Positions 26,041 to 63,137 of a stretch of DNA of 64,000 nucleotides are shown here, piece after piece. Position numbers and translations under genes: made by a program. Origin of the DNA: Micromonospora coxensis (lineage in GTDB: Bacteria > Actinomycetota > Actinomycetes > Mycobacteriales > Micromonosporaceae); assembly GCF_900090295.1 (NCBI RefSeq), contig NZ_LT607753.1:5518001-5582000 (forward strand), written 5' to 3'. The notes under the pieces are model-generated. The model made no database searches. It had not been told where the DNA came from and saw only the letters and a program-made list of their open reading frames with translations. Every line of letters starts with the position of its first letter. The first letter of the stretch is position 1.

Positions 26041-26985
26041 TCAGCGGAGGCGGCGCAGGACCGCCGCGCCGGCCGAGGCGGCCGTGTCGCCGACGGTGCG
26101 GACCAGCGCCGGCAGGTCGGGCAGCCAGCCGCCCCGGACCGCCTCACCGGCCGGGTTCGGTCGGAAGACCACCCCCTCGGTCGGCGGGGTCGGCCGGTTC
26201 GTCAGCCCGCCGAGCCGCATCAGCGGCCCGACCAGCACGTCGTAGAACGCCGGTAGCGCGGTGAAGCCGACCCGCATGACCACGTTGAGCCGGCCCACCG
26301 AGATCTCCCGGCGGGGGCGGTCGGCGCAGTCGACGATGGCCCGGGCCACCCGCTGTGGCGTGGTGATCGGCAGCGGCGGCCGGCCGATCCGGCCGAGGTA
26401 GTTCGCCGCCTGCTGGTAGACCGGGGTGTCCACGCTGCCCGGGGTGATCAGGCAGACGTGCGTCCCGGGCAGGTCCCGGGACTCCTGCCGCAACGCCCGG
26501 GCCAGCCCGTGCAGCCCCCACTTGCTGGTGACGTAGCCGCTCATGTAGGGCGCGGTGATGTGCCCGAGCACCGAACCGGTGAGGATCAGCGTGCCGCCGC
26601 CGGCGGTCCGGAAGTGCCGCAGCGCGACCCGGGCGGCCCCGGCGGCGGCCAGCAGGTCGGTCCGGACCACCTGCTCGAAGACCTCCGCCGGGATCTCCTC
26701 GAAGCGCCCGTACGCCATGACCGCCGCGGTGTGCACCCAGACGTCGATCCGGCCGAACCGGGCGAGCGCGGCGTCGGCCAGCGCGTCGAGCGCGCCGGGC
26801 GCGGTGACGTCGCTCGGCACGTCGTGTGCCTCGGCGCCCGCCTCCTCGCACTCCCGGCGCACCTGCGCCAGGGTCCCGGGGGAGCGGGCCGCGAGGACCA
26901 GCCGGTCCCCGCGACCGGCGAACTCCCGGGCGGCCGCGCGGCCGATGCCGCTGGTGGCCCCGGTGATCACCACCACCCGACTCAC
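26041..26985 (-). CDS. Short-chain dehydrogenase/reductase
   Basis: 314 residues. The cofactor motif VVVITGATSGIGRAAAREFA opens the protein. The catalytic serine is in LTGSVLGHITAPYMSGYVTSKWGLHGL, where the YxxxK is YVTSK, and CLITPGSVDTPVY follows. The last 90 residues extend beyond the classical SDR core. The GTG start at 26985 overlaps the stop of the alcohol dehydrogenase gene (GTGA), so the two are translated as a pair. Together they suggest a redox module for an alcohol/aldehyde couple of unknown identity. Confidence 0.88.
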   Translation of the reverse strand: MSRVVVITGATSGIGRAAAREFAGRGDRLVLAARSPGTLAQVRRECEEAGAEAHDVPSDVTAPGALDALADAALARFGRIDVWVHTAAVMAYGRFEEIPAEVFEQVVRTDLLAAAGAARVALRHFRTAGGGTLILTGSVLGHITAPYMSGYVTSKWGLHGLARALRQESRDLPGTHVCLITPGSVDTPVYQQAANYLGRIGRPPLPITTPQRVARAIVDCADRPRREISVGRLNVVMRVGFTALPAFYDVLVGPLMRLGGLTNRPTPPTEGVVFRPNPAGEAVRGGWLPDLPALVRTVGDTAASAGAAVLRRLR

Positions 26986-28166
26986 GGGGCGAGCACGACC
27001 TTCACGCAGCCGTCCTCCTTCTTCTGGAACATCTCGTACGCCTTCGGCGCGTCGCCCAACGGCACCCGGTGCGTCCGCAGGTCCGCCACGCCCAGCGGGT
27101 CGTCGTCGCCGGAGAGCAGCGGCATGATCTCGTCGGTCCAGCGGCGCACGTGGCACTGCCCCATCCGCAGCTGGATGCCCCGGTCGAACATCTCCATCAG
27201 CGGCATCGGGTCCACCTCGCCGCCGTACACGCCGGAGATGGAGACGGTGCCGCCCCGGCGGACCGCCTTGAGCGCGGCCTTGAGCACCACGAGGCGGTCC
27301 ACGCCGACCCGGTCGGTCATCGCCTGGGCCAGCTTGTCCGGCAGCAGCCCGGCAGCGGTCTGCGCGACCTTGCCGAGCGGGGCGCCGTGCGCCTCCATGC
27401 CCACCGCGTCGATCACCGCGTCGGGCCCGCGCCCGTCGACGAGGTCGATCAGCGTGCCCGGCACGTCGTCGAGTTGGCTGACGTCCAGCGTCTCGATGCC
27501 GTGCCGGCGGGCCATCTCCAACCGCTCCGGCACCAGGTCCAGCCCGATCACCCGGTCGGCGCCGAGGTGGCGGCCGATGCGGGCGCAGAACTGGCCGACC
27601 GGGCCGAGGCCGAAGACGGCCAGCGTGCCGCCGCGCGGGGTGTCGGCGTACTTCACCGCCTGCCAGGCGGTGGGCAGGATGTCACTGAGGTAGAGGTAAC
27701 GCTCGTCGGGGCCGGTCTCCGGGACCTTGATCGGGCCGAACTGGGCCTGCGGGACCCGCAGGTACTCGGCCTGACCGCCGGGCACCGAGCCGTAGAGCGA
27801 GGTGTAGCCGAACAGCGCCGCGCCCTTGCCCTCGGCGGTGACCTGGGTGGTCTCGCACTGGGCGTAGAGCTGCCGCCGGCACATCCAGCAGTCGCCGCAG
27901 GAGATGTTGAACGGGACGACCACCCGGTCGCCGGGCTTGAGCCGGGTCACCCCGGAGCCGACCTCCTCGACGATCCCCATCGGCTCGTGACCGAGGATGT
28001 CGCCCGGCCTCAGGTACGGGCCGAGCACCTCGTACAGGTGCAGGTCGGAGCCGCAGATCGCGGTCGAGGTGATCCGGACGATCGCGTCCGTCGGCTGCTC
28101 GATGCGGGGGTCCGGTACGTCCTCCACCCGGACGTCCCGCTTGCCGTGCCAGGTCAGTGCCTTCAT
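26982..28166 (-). CDS. Zinc-dependent alcohol dehydrogenase
   Basis: 394 residues of the medium-chain dehydrogenase family, class resembling glutathione-dependent formaldehyde dehydrogenases. Catalytic zinc ligands are in STAICGSDLHLYE and ILGHEPMGIVEEVG; the structural zinc cluster is CGDCWMCRRQLYAQC; the Rossmann motif is LAVFGLGPVGQFCARIG. It oxidises alcohols with NAD(P). The ATG at 28166 follows GGAGGGGAC. It is the first gene of a pair with the SDR. Its upstream side borders the satellite element at 28292-28806. Confidence 0.9.
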   Translation of the reverse strand: MKALTWHGKRDVRVEDVPDPRIEQPTDAIVRITSTAICGSDLHLYEVLGPYLRPGDILGHEPMGIVEEVGSGVTRLKPGDRVVVPFNISCGDCWMCRRQLYAQCETTQVTAEGKGAALFGYTSLYGSVPGGQAEYLRVPQAQFGPIKVPETGPDERYLYLSDILPTAWQAVKYADTPRGGTLAVFGLGPVGQFCARIGRHLGADRVIGLDLVPERLEMARRHGIETLDVSQLDDVPGTLIDLVDGRGPDAVIDAVGMEAHGAPLGKVAQTAAGLLPDKLAQAMTDRVGVDRLVVLKAALKAVRRGGTVSISGVYGGEVDPMPLMEMFDRGIQLRMGQCHVRRWTDEIMPLLSGDDDPLGVADLRTHRVPLGDAPKAYEMFQKKEDGCVKVVLAP

Positions 28167-28291
28167 GCCGGAATGTCCCCTCCTCGGTGTCCTTCATCGG
28201 ACTGCTACCCGCGAGGGGGCGGTTGAACCGGCCACCGGCGCCCGTGCCCGGGCCGCCCGTGTCCGGCTGCCGTGCCTCGGGGATGCTGTCT

Positions 28292-28324
28292 GGTCGCTAC
28301 AGACTTGATGACACAAATGGCTCA
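28292..28324. repeat. Left 33-base inverted repeat of the satellite element
   Basis: The 33 bases beginning GGTCGCTACAGACTTGATGA and ending in TGGCTCA match the reverse complement of 28774-28806 with about three mismatches. It sits between the alcohol dehydrogenase promoter and the satellite. There is no obvious target duplication outside the two arms. Confidence 0.85.
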
Positions 28325-28773
28325 GGACCGCTGCCGCTGGCCACTGGCCACTGGCCACTGGTCACTGCCGCTGGCCGCTGGCCGCTGCCGTTGGCCGCTG
28401 GCCGCTGGCGCTGCCGTTGGCCGCTGGCCGCTGGCGCTGCCGTTGGCCGCTGGCCGCTGGCGCTGCCGTTGGCCGTTGCCGTTGGCCGTTGGCGCTGGCC
28501 GTTGCCGCTGGCCGTTGGCGCTGGCCGTTGGCGCTGGCCGTTGCCGCTGGCCGTTGCCGCTGGCCGTTGCCGCTGGCCGCTGCTACTGGCCACTGGTCGC
28601 TGCCGTTGCCGCCGGTCGTTGCCGCCGGTCGTTGCCGCCGGTCGTTGCCGCCGGTCGTTGCCAATGGCCGTTGCCGCTGGCCGCTGCCGCTGCCGTTGCC
28701 GCTGGCCGCTGCCGCTGCCGTTGCCGCTGGCCGCTGGCCGCTGGCGCTGCATCGGCGTTCAGCGCTGCCATGG
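28325..28773. repeat. 13-base-unit tandem satellite
   Basis: About 450 bases made almost only of 6- and 7-base words such as GCCGTT, GGCCGCT, GGCCACT and GGCGCT. The words combine into 13-base units: four perfect GCCGCCGGTCGTT copies occupy 28608-28659. They also form a 26-base higher-order period: CTGCCGTT recurs at 28385, 28411, 28437 and 28463. Because 13 is not a multiple of three and the unit lacks stop codons, several frames on both strands stay open; I regard none as a gene. Confidence 0.9.
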
Positions 28774-28806
28774 TGAGTCATTTTTGTCGTCAAGTCTGTA
28801 GCGACC
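28774..28806. repeat. Right 33-base inverted repeat of the satellite element
   Basis: This arm (TGAGTCATTTTTGTCGTCAA at its inner end, then GTCTGTAGCGACC) is the complement of 28292-28324. Its AT-rich inner part is out of character for this genome. The two arms enclose 449 bases; the whole element is 515 bases. Confidence 0.85.
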
Positions 28807-28861
28807 CAACAAGGTACGAGTCGGCCCTGGCGCCGGCGGTGCGCGTACCTCTGGAAAAGGG

Positions 28862-28897
28862 CGACCGCCGCGCCCCGGGAGTGGGGCGCGGCGGTCG
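28862..28897 (-). terminator. Intrinsic terminator of sdhCAB
   Basis: CGACCGCCGCGCCCC (28862-28876) pairs perfectly with 28883-28897 around a 6-base loop. On the minus strand the stem is followed by CCCTTTTCC. It starts 31 bases after the sdhB stop, which makes it a convincing operon terminator. Confidence 0.8.
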
Positions 28898-28927
28898 TGG
28901 GCCGACGGCGGGTGGTCCGCCGTGGGA

Positions 28928-29685
28928 TCAGGAGCCCGGGGTGTTGCCCCGCTTCGTCGTCGCCAGCAGGTAGTCGCGGTTGAGCCGGCCGATGGTGTCC
29001 AGCGGGATGCCCTTCGGGCAGACCGCGGTGCACTCACCGGCGTTGGTGCAGCCGCCGAACCCGGCCTCGTCGTGCGCGTCCACCATCCCGATCACCCGGG
29101 TGTAGCGCTCGGGCTGGCCCTGCGGCAGCAGCGAGAGCTGGGTGATCTTGGCGGCGGTGAACAGCATGCCGGAGCCGTTCGGGCAGGCCGCCACGCAGGC
29201 GCCGCAGCCGATGCAGGCGGCCGACTCGAAGGCGGCGTCGGCGTCGGCCTTGGGCACCGGGGTGGAGTGCGCCTCGGGGGCGCTGCCGGTCGGGGCGGTG
29301 ATGTAGCCACCGGCGGCGATGATCCGGTCGAAGGCGTTGCGGTTGACCACCAGGTCCTTGATGACCGGGAAGGCCCGGGCCCGCCACGGCTCGATGTCGA
29401 TCGTCTCGCCGTCGGAGAACTGCCGCATGTGCAGCTGGCAGGCGGTGGTGCCGCGCTGCGGCCCGTGCGCGTCCCCGTTGATCATGAGGCCGCACATGCC
29501 GCAGATGCCCTCACGGCAGTCGTGGTCGAACGCGATCGGCTCCTCCCCCTGGAGGATGAGCCGCTCGTTGAGCACGTCGAGCATCTCCAGGAACGACATG
29601 TCCGGGGAGACGTCGTCGACCTGGTAGGTCACCATCCGACCCTTGTCCTCAGGGCCCTTCTGGCGCCAGATGCGCAGGGTCAGAT

Positions 29686-29689
<4 letters not shown>
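28928..29689 (-). CDS. sdhB: Succinate dehydrogenase iron-sulfur subunit
   Basis: 253 residues. The N-terminal 2Fe-2S domain has [15 protein letters not shown]; the C-terminal domain has [15 protein letters not shown] for the 4Fe-4S centre and a later [10 protein letters not shown]. It carries electrons from SdhA to the membrane quinone site. The ATG at 29689 overlaps the sdhA stop by four bases. Type and order (CAB, one membrane subunit) match the actinobacterial succinate:menaquinone reductase. It is the last gene before the terminator at 28862-28897. Confidence 0.95.
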
Positions 29690-45599: not shown

Positions 45600-45692
45600 C
45601 GCGGCGCGGCGCGGCGCGCCGCGGGGCGGCGCGGCGGGGGCGGGGCGGGCGGGGGCGGGGCGGGCGGGGGCGGGCGGTGGGGGCGGGGGAGG
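45600..45692 (+). repeat. G-rich simple-sequence tract
   Basis: After copy C the plus strand runs through GCGGCGCG words into repeated GGGGCGGGGCGGGCGGGGGC blocks up to the end of the acyltransferase gene. Many runs of four or more G with single C spacers make it a strong G-quadruplex candidate on the plus strand. No gene is visible in it. Confidence 0.7.
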
Positions 45693-45695
45693 GGG

Positions 45696-62943: not shown

Positions 62944-63039
62944 GCCGGCGGCGCGTCGTCGTGCCGCCGGTGCGGCACTCACCGGCCGACACCCGTCCCG
63001 CCGTCAGCCCGTCGAGGCCGGCCGGGTCACGCCGCCCGA

Positions 63040-63110
63040 CGCCGGCCAGGTCACGCCGCCCGACGCCGGCCCGCCCGACGCCGGCCCGCCCGACGCCGGC
63101 CCGCCCGACC
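63040..63110. repeat. 15-base tandem repeat
   Basis: GACGCCGGCCCGCCC is repeated three times in tandem (about 63062-63106), preceded by two longer related units (GCCGGCCAGGTCACGCCGCC). It fills the gap between the sortase gene and the convergent monooxygenase gene. No gene is evident. Confidence 0.65.
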
Positions 63111-63137
63111 CGCTCGGCGCGGCCCGGGTGGCGCGGG

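Follow-up and report, generated by a model that had tools for sequence, protein, structure and literature searches.

Target-site duplication is a criterion for MITEs, core-site boxes and an integrase characterize the attC sites of integrons, and the middle of BOX elements is formed by a family-specific repeat, boxB. REPINs and REP-BIMEs are mobilized by RAYT (PMC3116915, PMC3733652). The authors of PMC3733652 place REPs mostly downstream of genes, between co-directional or convergent genes, and describe bacterial MITEs (RUP, NEMIS/CREE, ERIC, Bcr1) as elements of ~70 to 300 bp with terminal inverted repeats of 15 to 30 bp and no coding capacity, and CGTC-tagged REPs as dispersed palindromes of 20 to 40 bp, found mainly in alphaproteobacteria and apparently without a dedicated transposase. 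According to PMC2649163, CREE has a conserved core and many positions common to related genomes, while PMC3049150 depicts the BOX of pneumococcus as having conserved ends and a middle of variable length, occurring in one species and its close kin, and being thought parasitic.

A repeat family detected in 118 of the 160 Micromonospora genomes searched, with neither of its two arm types (A and B) seen in the other 42, can now be named and set beside these systems. It came to light in a window, i.e., the whole 64,000-nucleotide stretch of DNA analyzed here, which is part of the 6.77-Mb single-contig genome of Micromonospora coxensis (hereafter, the host). Like REPINs, its members have a short conserved sequence, inverted, on either side of a variable spacer and are hairpin-capable, extragenic, numerous, and species-typical. 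They differ in an arm of 28 nt and in the absence of the RAYT gene (Y1_Tnp, PF01797) from the host (0 in G000) and from G043, G056, G093, and G121. As for the GTAG/CGTC tag of REPs, type A arms end in CTAC/GTAG with the GTAG outward, by eye on the other side of the core, and type B arms are without it. Like the MITEs so described, the elements are short, dispersed, devoid of coding capacity, and bounded by terminal inverted repeats (the 28-nt arms; no Pfam family in the open reading frames [ORFs] of the window copy), and they share positions between genomes as CREE does. In contrast to MITEs, the collected elements show no target duplication at offsets of 0 to 40 nt; and in contrast to the conserved core given for CREE, their interiors are unrelated. 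No parent IS was found for them among four transposase families, and their lengths run from 60 to 505 bp (median, 96.5), the window copy lying beyond the ~70- to 300-bp range. Conserved ends, a variable-length middle, and a narrow host range recall BOX as outlined in its source, but the middles are unrelated from copy to copy and the units of their arrays all differ. CGTC-tagged REPs, in the description cited, likewise have no apparent dedicated transposase but do not have the two-armed 28-nt design, and the arm ends do not, by eye, fit attC boxes. The family is thus like MITEs and REPINs and a member of neither, because each comparison fails at one defining point (target duplication and RAYT, respectively). 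Searches of the literature on Micromonospora repeats and nonautonomous elements yielded no description of this family; the statement in the first-pass annotation that no described element has this design was nevertheless too strong, REPINs, BOX, and CREE being similar in design.

The studied copy occupies positions 28292 to 28806 of the window, between an sdhB-like and a zinc alcohol dehydrogenase (adh)-like gene (Table 1). Its arms extend over 38 nt (28287 to 28324 and 28774 to 28811), are 87% complementary, and lie 449 nt apart; the 33-nt arms with about three mismatches originally reported were confirmed (91% match, three mismatches). Only 28 nt of the arm are shared across the family. The CG directly outside them is kept in 93 to 96% of 32 host arms, and a further 16 to 18 outer nucleotides may belong to the element. 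As the first-pass annotation had it, the arms enclose a satellite of 13-base units, here a tandem array of 423 bases (32.5 copies, 83% matches) whose score of 417 is the highest of the 68 tandem-repeat rows across the window. The 26-base higher period noted earlier holds for part of the array (family D2), with agreement of ~81% at 26 bases apart and 63 to 69% at 13. The same early reading was right in seeing neither a plausible gene nor a target duplication at this copy: four long ORFs across it had no Pfam family at an E value of ≤0.001, for which a coding role was rejected, the unit of 13 is no multiple of 3, which counts against coding, and an Rfam search over 27900 to 29200 returned nothing at an E value of ≤1. 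Two other repeats were seen in the window, a 96-base G-rich tract at 45600 to 45695 (nearly pure G/C, several TRF rows), unrelated to the element, and a perfect 15-base tandem repeat of 3.6 copies inside longer repeats at 63013 to 63126.

Table 1. Coordinates of the element and neighboring features in the window
Feature	Position	Strand	Basis
Left 28-nt arm, type A (CTACAGACTTGATGACACAAATGGCTCA)	28297..28324	+	Sequence read; consensus from family arms
Right 28-nt arm, type A, inverted	28774..28801	-	Sequence read; inverted-repeat and arm-site searches
Left outer flank that may belong to the element	28279..28296	+	CG kept; PLK6-60 homology at least 16 nt outside arms
Right outer flank that may belong to the element	28802..28817	-	CG and PLK6-60 homology; GTACC-like end as in PLK6-60 copies, by eye
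Tandem array of 13-bp units, with a higher period of 26 bp in part of it; private to the window copy	28328..28750	.	Repeat search; comparison of copies
Terminator-like hairpin of the sdhB-like gene (3' end), outside the family	28862..28897	-	Inverted repeat I2; minus-strand T-run
Flanking gene, succinate dehydrogenase iron-sulfur subunit-like	28928..29689	-	ORF and Pfam
Flanking gene, zinc alcohol dehydrogenase-like	26982..28166	-	ORF and Pfam

The 13-base satellite is filler within the window copy. The whole window element is single copy in the host genome, which leaves the satellite outside the definition of the family, and a functional part for it was rejected because it is private to this copy. 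Interiors of 20 to 119 nt had a tandem array in 0 of 83 cases (equal-length flanks, 14 of 165), while longer interiors had one in 13 of 18, with a different unit in each (equal-length flanks, 12 of 30; P = 0.04), 5 of these 18 having been fetched because of their widely spaced arms. The proposal that the satellite was a defining part or a protein-binding array consequently found no support, short interiors having no array and long ones as well as flanks often having unrelated ones. The array itself may have arisen by replication slippage. A conspicuous satellite can thus be incidental, with the real signal in short ends.

That signal recurs in the host. CGCTACAGACTTGA has 15 exact occurrences in the 6.77 Mb (~0.05 expected at equal base frequencies), and with up to two mismatches allowed it has 40 sites, its reversed control 12. 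Thirty-four of these 40 lie inside the 18 loci read, which hold 17 two-armed elements and one lone arm; the remaining 6, all with two mismatches, lie outside. Measured from CTAC to GTAG, the host elements are 60 to 505 bp long, and their interiors are unrelated apart from a few (L042, L049, and L053, with a common loop). It is therefore the paired inverted arms that define the family. The first-pass annotation had proposed a MITE-like element without a transposase, looking to several copies as the mark of a mobile or functional family and to a single occurrence as evidence against one; the return of the arms as inverted pairs at 17 host loci, with differing interiors and lengths, supports the proposal, and that interpretation as a whole is partly supported. 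At L039 (1151 to 1609), a third arm follows a host element, the end of the element and ~30 nt of flank being seemingly duplicated.

Across Micromonospora, 128 distinct elements were collected (60 to 505 bp; median, 96.5), 94 of them from a two-arm pattern that is biased toward short canonical copies and itself accounts for part of the arm conservation. Type A arms (28-base consensus CTACnRACYTGAnnnCnnnnnYGRnTCR; an early count of consensus columns left out 40 arm candidates, mostly real, which later analyses include) occur in at least 39 of the 160 congeneric genomes, with 1 to 100 arms each, and type B arms (consensus CTKTSGASCTGAnnnCGnnnACGAnTCA; CTKTSGASCTGA...) in at least 111, in a set with one genome per species where exact-pattern counts are lower bounds; the reversed control gave 0 in all genomes for type A and 0 for type B. 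Matches to GGTCGGTACCGCCTTGATGAC (G008, G016, G038, G044, and others) resemble the start of a coding gene, and their 31 of 160 genomes were for this reason discarded as a carrier count. Several genomes rich in type A are nearly without type B (A/B arms: G000, 33/0; G043, 56/0; G056, 46/0; G121, 100/0; G093, 94/3). The types are not mutually exclusive, since G111 (44/9), G095 (21/19), G060 (12/38), and G080 (10/51) hold both, and type B was also seen 44 to 50 nt beside type A elements at five loci. Arms are typical of their own genome and differ by species; in G093, for instance, which has 105 arms by a looser pattern, GAGAGC is present in 95 of the 100 arms listed. In type B, the inner core of the partner arm is flipped relative to an unchanged outer box in 29 of 47 rows and not in the other 18 (both-arm views and two loci fetched twice are included, and 20 of the 67 matches had no partner within 700 nt), from which we take the core to be near-symmetric and the outer box to be directed.

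In the sets searched, the family is restricted to one genus. All 96 stretches that matched the two-arm pattern in a collection of species genomes were in Micromonospora records, and a relaxed pattern, which does not detect the arm variant of the host and gives too low a count within the genus, matched 73 of 106 Micromonospora genomes versus 1 of 194 from other genera in the Micromonosporaceae; this lone outside match is at chance level, because the reversed control also matches once in 300. Viral carriage was rejected on 0 matches in three scans of viral contigs. Tandem arrays of arms were observed in L212 and L213 (G019), L209 (G029), and L217 (G045), with an arm at the start of every unit; the arrays comprise five 89-bp units, three 92-bp units, and the like. 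At two MP36 loci (L103, 20 to 560; L115, 5250 to 5660), adjoining type B and type A elements form a composite, and each composite adjoins a 7-base simple repeat.

No enzyme could be matched to the arms among the four transposase families searched. The host has no Y1_Tnp, DDE_Tnp_1, or IS110 and four copies of rve, and G121, with the most arms, has none of the four. DDE_Tnp_1 is present in G043, G093, G056, and G009, rve in G043, G093, and G009, and IS110 in G043, G093, and G056, so that no family is common to all six genomes searched. Y1_Tnp was found in 45 of the 160 genomes (12 of 39 type A carriers versus 33 of 121 others; P = 0.69), and a REP/RAYT system was rejected given its absence from the host and this lack of association with carriers. 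The arms seem unlikely to be IS ends of the four families, being near only 1 of 70 of their loci (L263), ~1 kb off; L270 and L304 gave weak two-mismatch matches. No autonomous copy was found, the ORF enclosed by a G029 pair 1.7 kb apart being phosphotransferase-like by eye.

Near-identical copies are dispersed in one strain, PLK6-60, where 27 of the 36 elements examined have a length of exactly 101 bp; the most similar pairs are identical at 97 to 98 of 101 positions, at different loci and in either orientation. Homology between these copies outside the arms stops at varying distances, with no clean common ends. Target duplications were absent from the collected elements at outer offsets of 0 to 40 nt per side, and the sole clear offset excess (4-mers at 2/2, 9 versus 1.0) equals the palindromic CGCG of nine PLK6-60 flanks. 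Any spread was not by clean cut-and-paste with fixed ends.

We lean, at somewhat better than even confidence, toward a noncoding, nonautonomous MITE/REPIN-like dispersed repeat spread in waves by a trans-acting enzyme; the two-armed family is real, restricted to one genus in the sets searched, and probably mobile. The two inverted 28-bp arms, each an oriented outer box with a near-symmetric inner core, would be the recognition ends on which a putative trans-acting recombinase or transposase acts. Copies would spread in successive, species-typical waves into intergenic DNA, those in genes and promoters being avoided or lost, and the interior would be free to change, in the window copy through filling by slippage of the 13-bp unit. 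We favor the mobile repeat because the 17 host elements have unrelated interiors, because near-identical 101-bp copies are dispersed in PLK6-60, because arms are typical of their genome (as in G093), because type A and type B occur in many genomes of the genus against controls of 0, because none of the 128 elements lies in a called gene and convergent gaps are preferred to divergent ones, and because clear vertical pairs keep their arms while L052 fits an older wave (see below). It is opposed by the lack of a target duplication, clean ends, or any gene-bearing copy, by Y1_Tnp being absent from the host and unassociated with type A and G121 being without all four families, and by shared positions in excess of random insertion. 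More tentatively, the arms may be species-coded recognition sites through which an undescribed trans-acting system spreads or keeps the pairs without the four tested transposase families, with a core that can flip behind an oriented box and a change from type B to type A in several whole genomes. With arms changing from one genome to the next where the tested transposases are lacking, the family offers a testable case of dispersed sites that follow a protein.

Both flanks are common, in order, to 42 cross-species element pairs with different interiors, 6 of which link the host (17 elements) with Micromonospora halophytica (13 elements examined). In the 31 pairs aligned, identity was 76% in the arms, 57 to 59% in the near flanks, and 44% in the interiors (shuffled control, 54%). 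The arm value does not exceed that of unrelated arms, which between different genomes are identical at 21.2 of 28 positions, the arms having been selected by pattern; these gaps thus contain elements in both species, and descent in place is unsupported for most pairs. Clear vertical pairs do keep their arms (L052/L098, 25 and 26 of 28; L077/L108, 25 and 27 of 28), and the host element L052 carries the arm signature of M. halophytica, as an older wave would predict. In L050/L086, by comparison, the flanks agree at 95% and the arms at 18.5 of 28, each being nearer to the arms of its own genome (22.0 and 23.5). Overall, likeness to the own genome exceeds likeness to the ortholog in 24 of 40 pairs, and in 5 of 54 further loci, which are mostly type B, both flanks match those of a type A element. 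In our reading of the shared positions, one wave after another entered a restricted number of permissive gaps; the main rival is recoding in place. In that rival, the arms are fixed cis-acting sites inherited in place and bound by a host DNA-binding protein (e.g., a chromosome organizer or a protein acting at transcript ends), whose shift in specificity recodes a genome's sites together. Such sites would account for the 42 shared pairs, including those with M. halophytica, for L050/L086 and the 24 pairs nearer their own genome, and for loci common to both types, as in the sdhB-adh gap and the 5 of 54 loci. They appear unlikely in view of the dispersed near-identical copies, the 42 genomes with neither arm type, the arms retained in vertical pairs, and a shared-flank arm identity at the level of unrelated arms; a limited number of permissive gaps would yield the shared positions equally well.

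Agreement between the two arms of one element exceeds chance in the host and in a mixed genome set (0 of 2000 permutations each) but not in PLK6-60 (0.99), MP36 (0.98), or M. halophytica (0.09), a difference that the mobile repeat leaves unexplained. Inside single arms, pairing of positions 16 and 21 was seen in 143 of 204 cases versus 100.5 expected; dyad covariation was rejected, as other position pairs score as high and relatedness may explain it. Arm likeness in the host, strong stems, the ragged homology between copies, and the tandem arm arrays in four loci (L209, L212, L213, and L217) would all suit palindromes that have no dedicated protein and are homogenized in each genome by ectopic gene conversion and hairpin template switching. 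We hold this to be distinctly improbable, for sequence-specific arms persist hundreds of nucleotides apart, host interiors are not shared, and flipped cores stand behind an outer box of unchanged direction.

The elements are intergenic and biased toward 3' ends. None of the 128 lies within a gene as called by a home-made codon-usage gene finder; 46 are in convergent, 62 in co-directional, and 11 in divergent gaps, with 9 at locus edges, compared with 81 convergent, 214 co-directional, and 110 divergent among all gaps of >60 nt in the same loci, convergent gaps being over-used and divergent ones under-used (Fisher P = 3e-7). The median distance is 157 nt to gene ends (154 distances) versus 285 nt to gene starts (84 distances). 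Genes flanking the host elements had no common theme when their translations were judged by eye. Folded as DNA, two short copies, with near-perfect stems, gave z scores of -13.7 and -13.9 and a longer copy -7.3, so that of the early suggestion of an RNA folding into a long stem, folding is possible for short members, while the strand asymmetry of mismatches expected of RNA is weak (z = 2.2). Transcribed 3'-end hairpins acting as bidirectional terminators or mRNA stabilizers, to which the nearness to gene ends, the excess of convergent gaps, and the strong stems would point, are highly improbable, a terminator-like hairpin already preceding the window copy, the strand asymmetry being weak, Rfam giving no match, and arms lying up to 450 nt apart.

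The sdhB-adh gap was compared in 36 genomes including the host, on the basis of sequence for the window and 30 loci, among which L160 breaks off at the end of its contig, and of coordinates for two genomes (G046 and G098), with G058, G100, and G132 left out. Type A is present in the window and in G009, G048, G099, and G127, as read, and in G046 and G098, by coordinates; type B is present in L157, L170, L171, and L178, L159 and L169 being similar by eye. Ten loci have a gap of only 152 to 187 nt, and L156, L162 to L165, L167, and L175 contain quite different palindromes. The gap (28167 to 28927 in the window; L153 to L182) is a hot spot with unrelated palindromes in other species, among them GCTTTGCTCTGCTGCC in L162, L165, and L167, GGGGCTGGGGGCGACCGTGCCCGG and CCGCTGGCCGGCACCCC in L156, L163, and L164, and GATCTTGG in L163 and L175.
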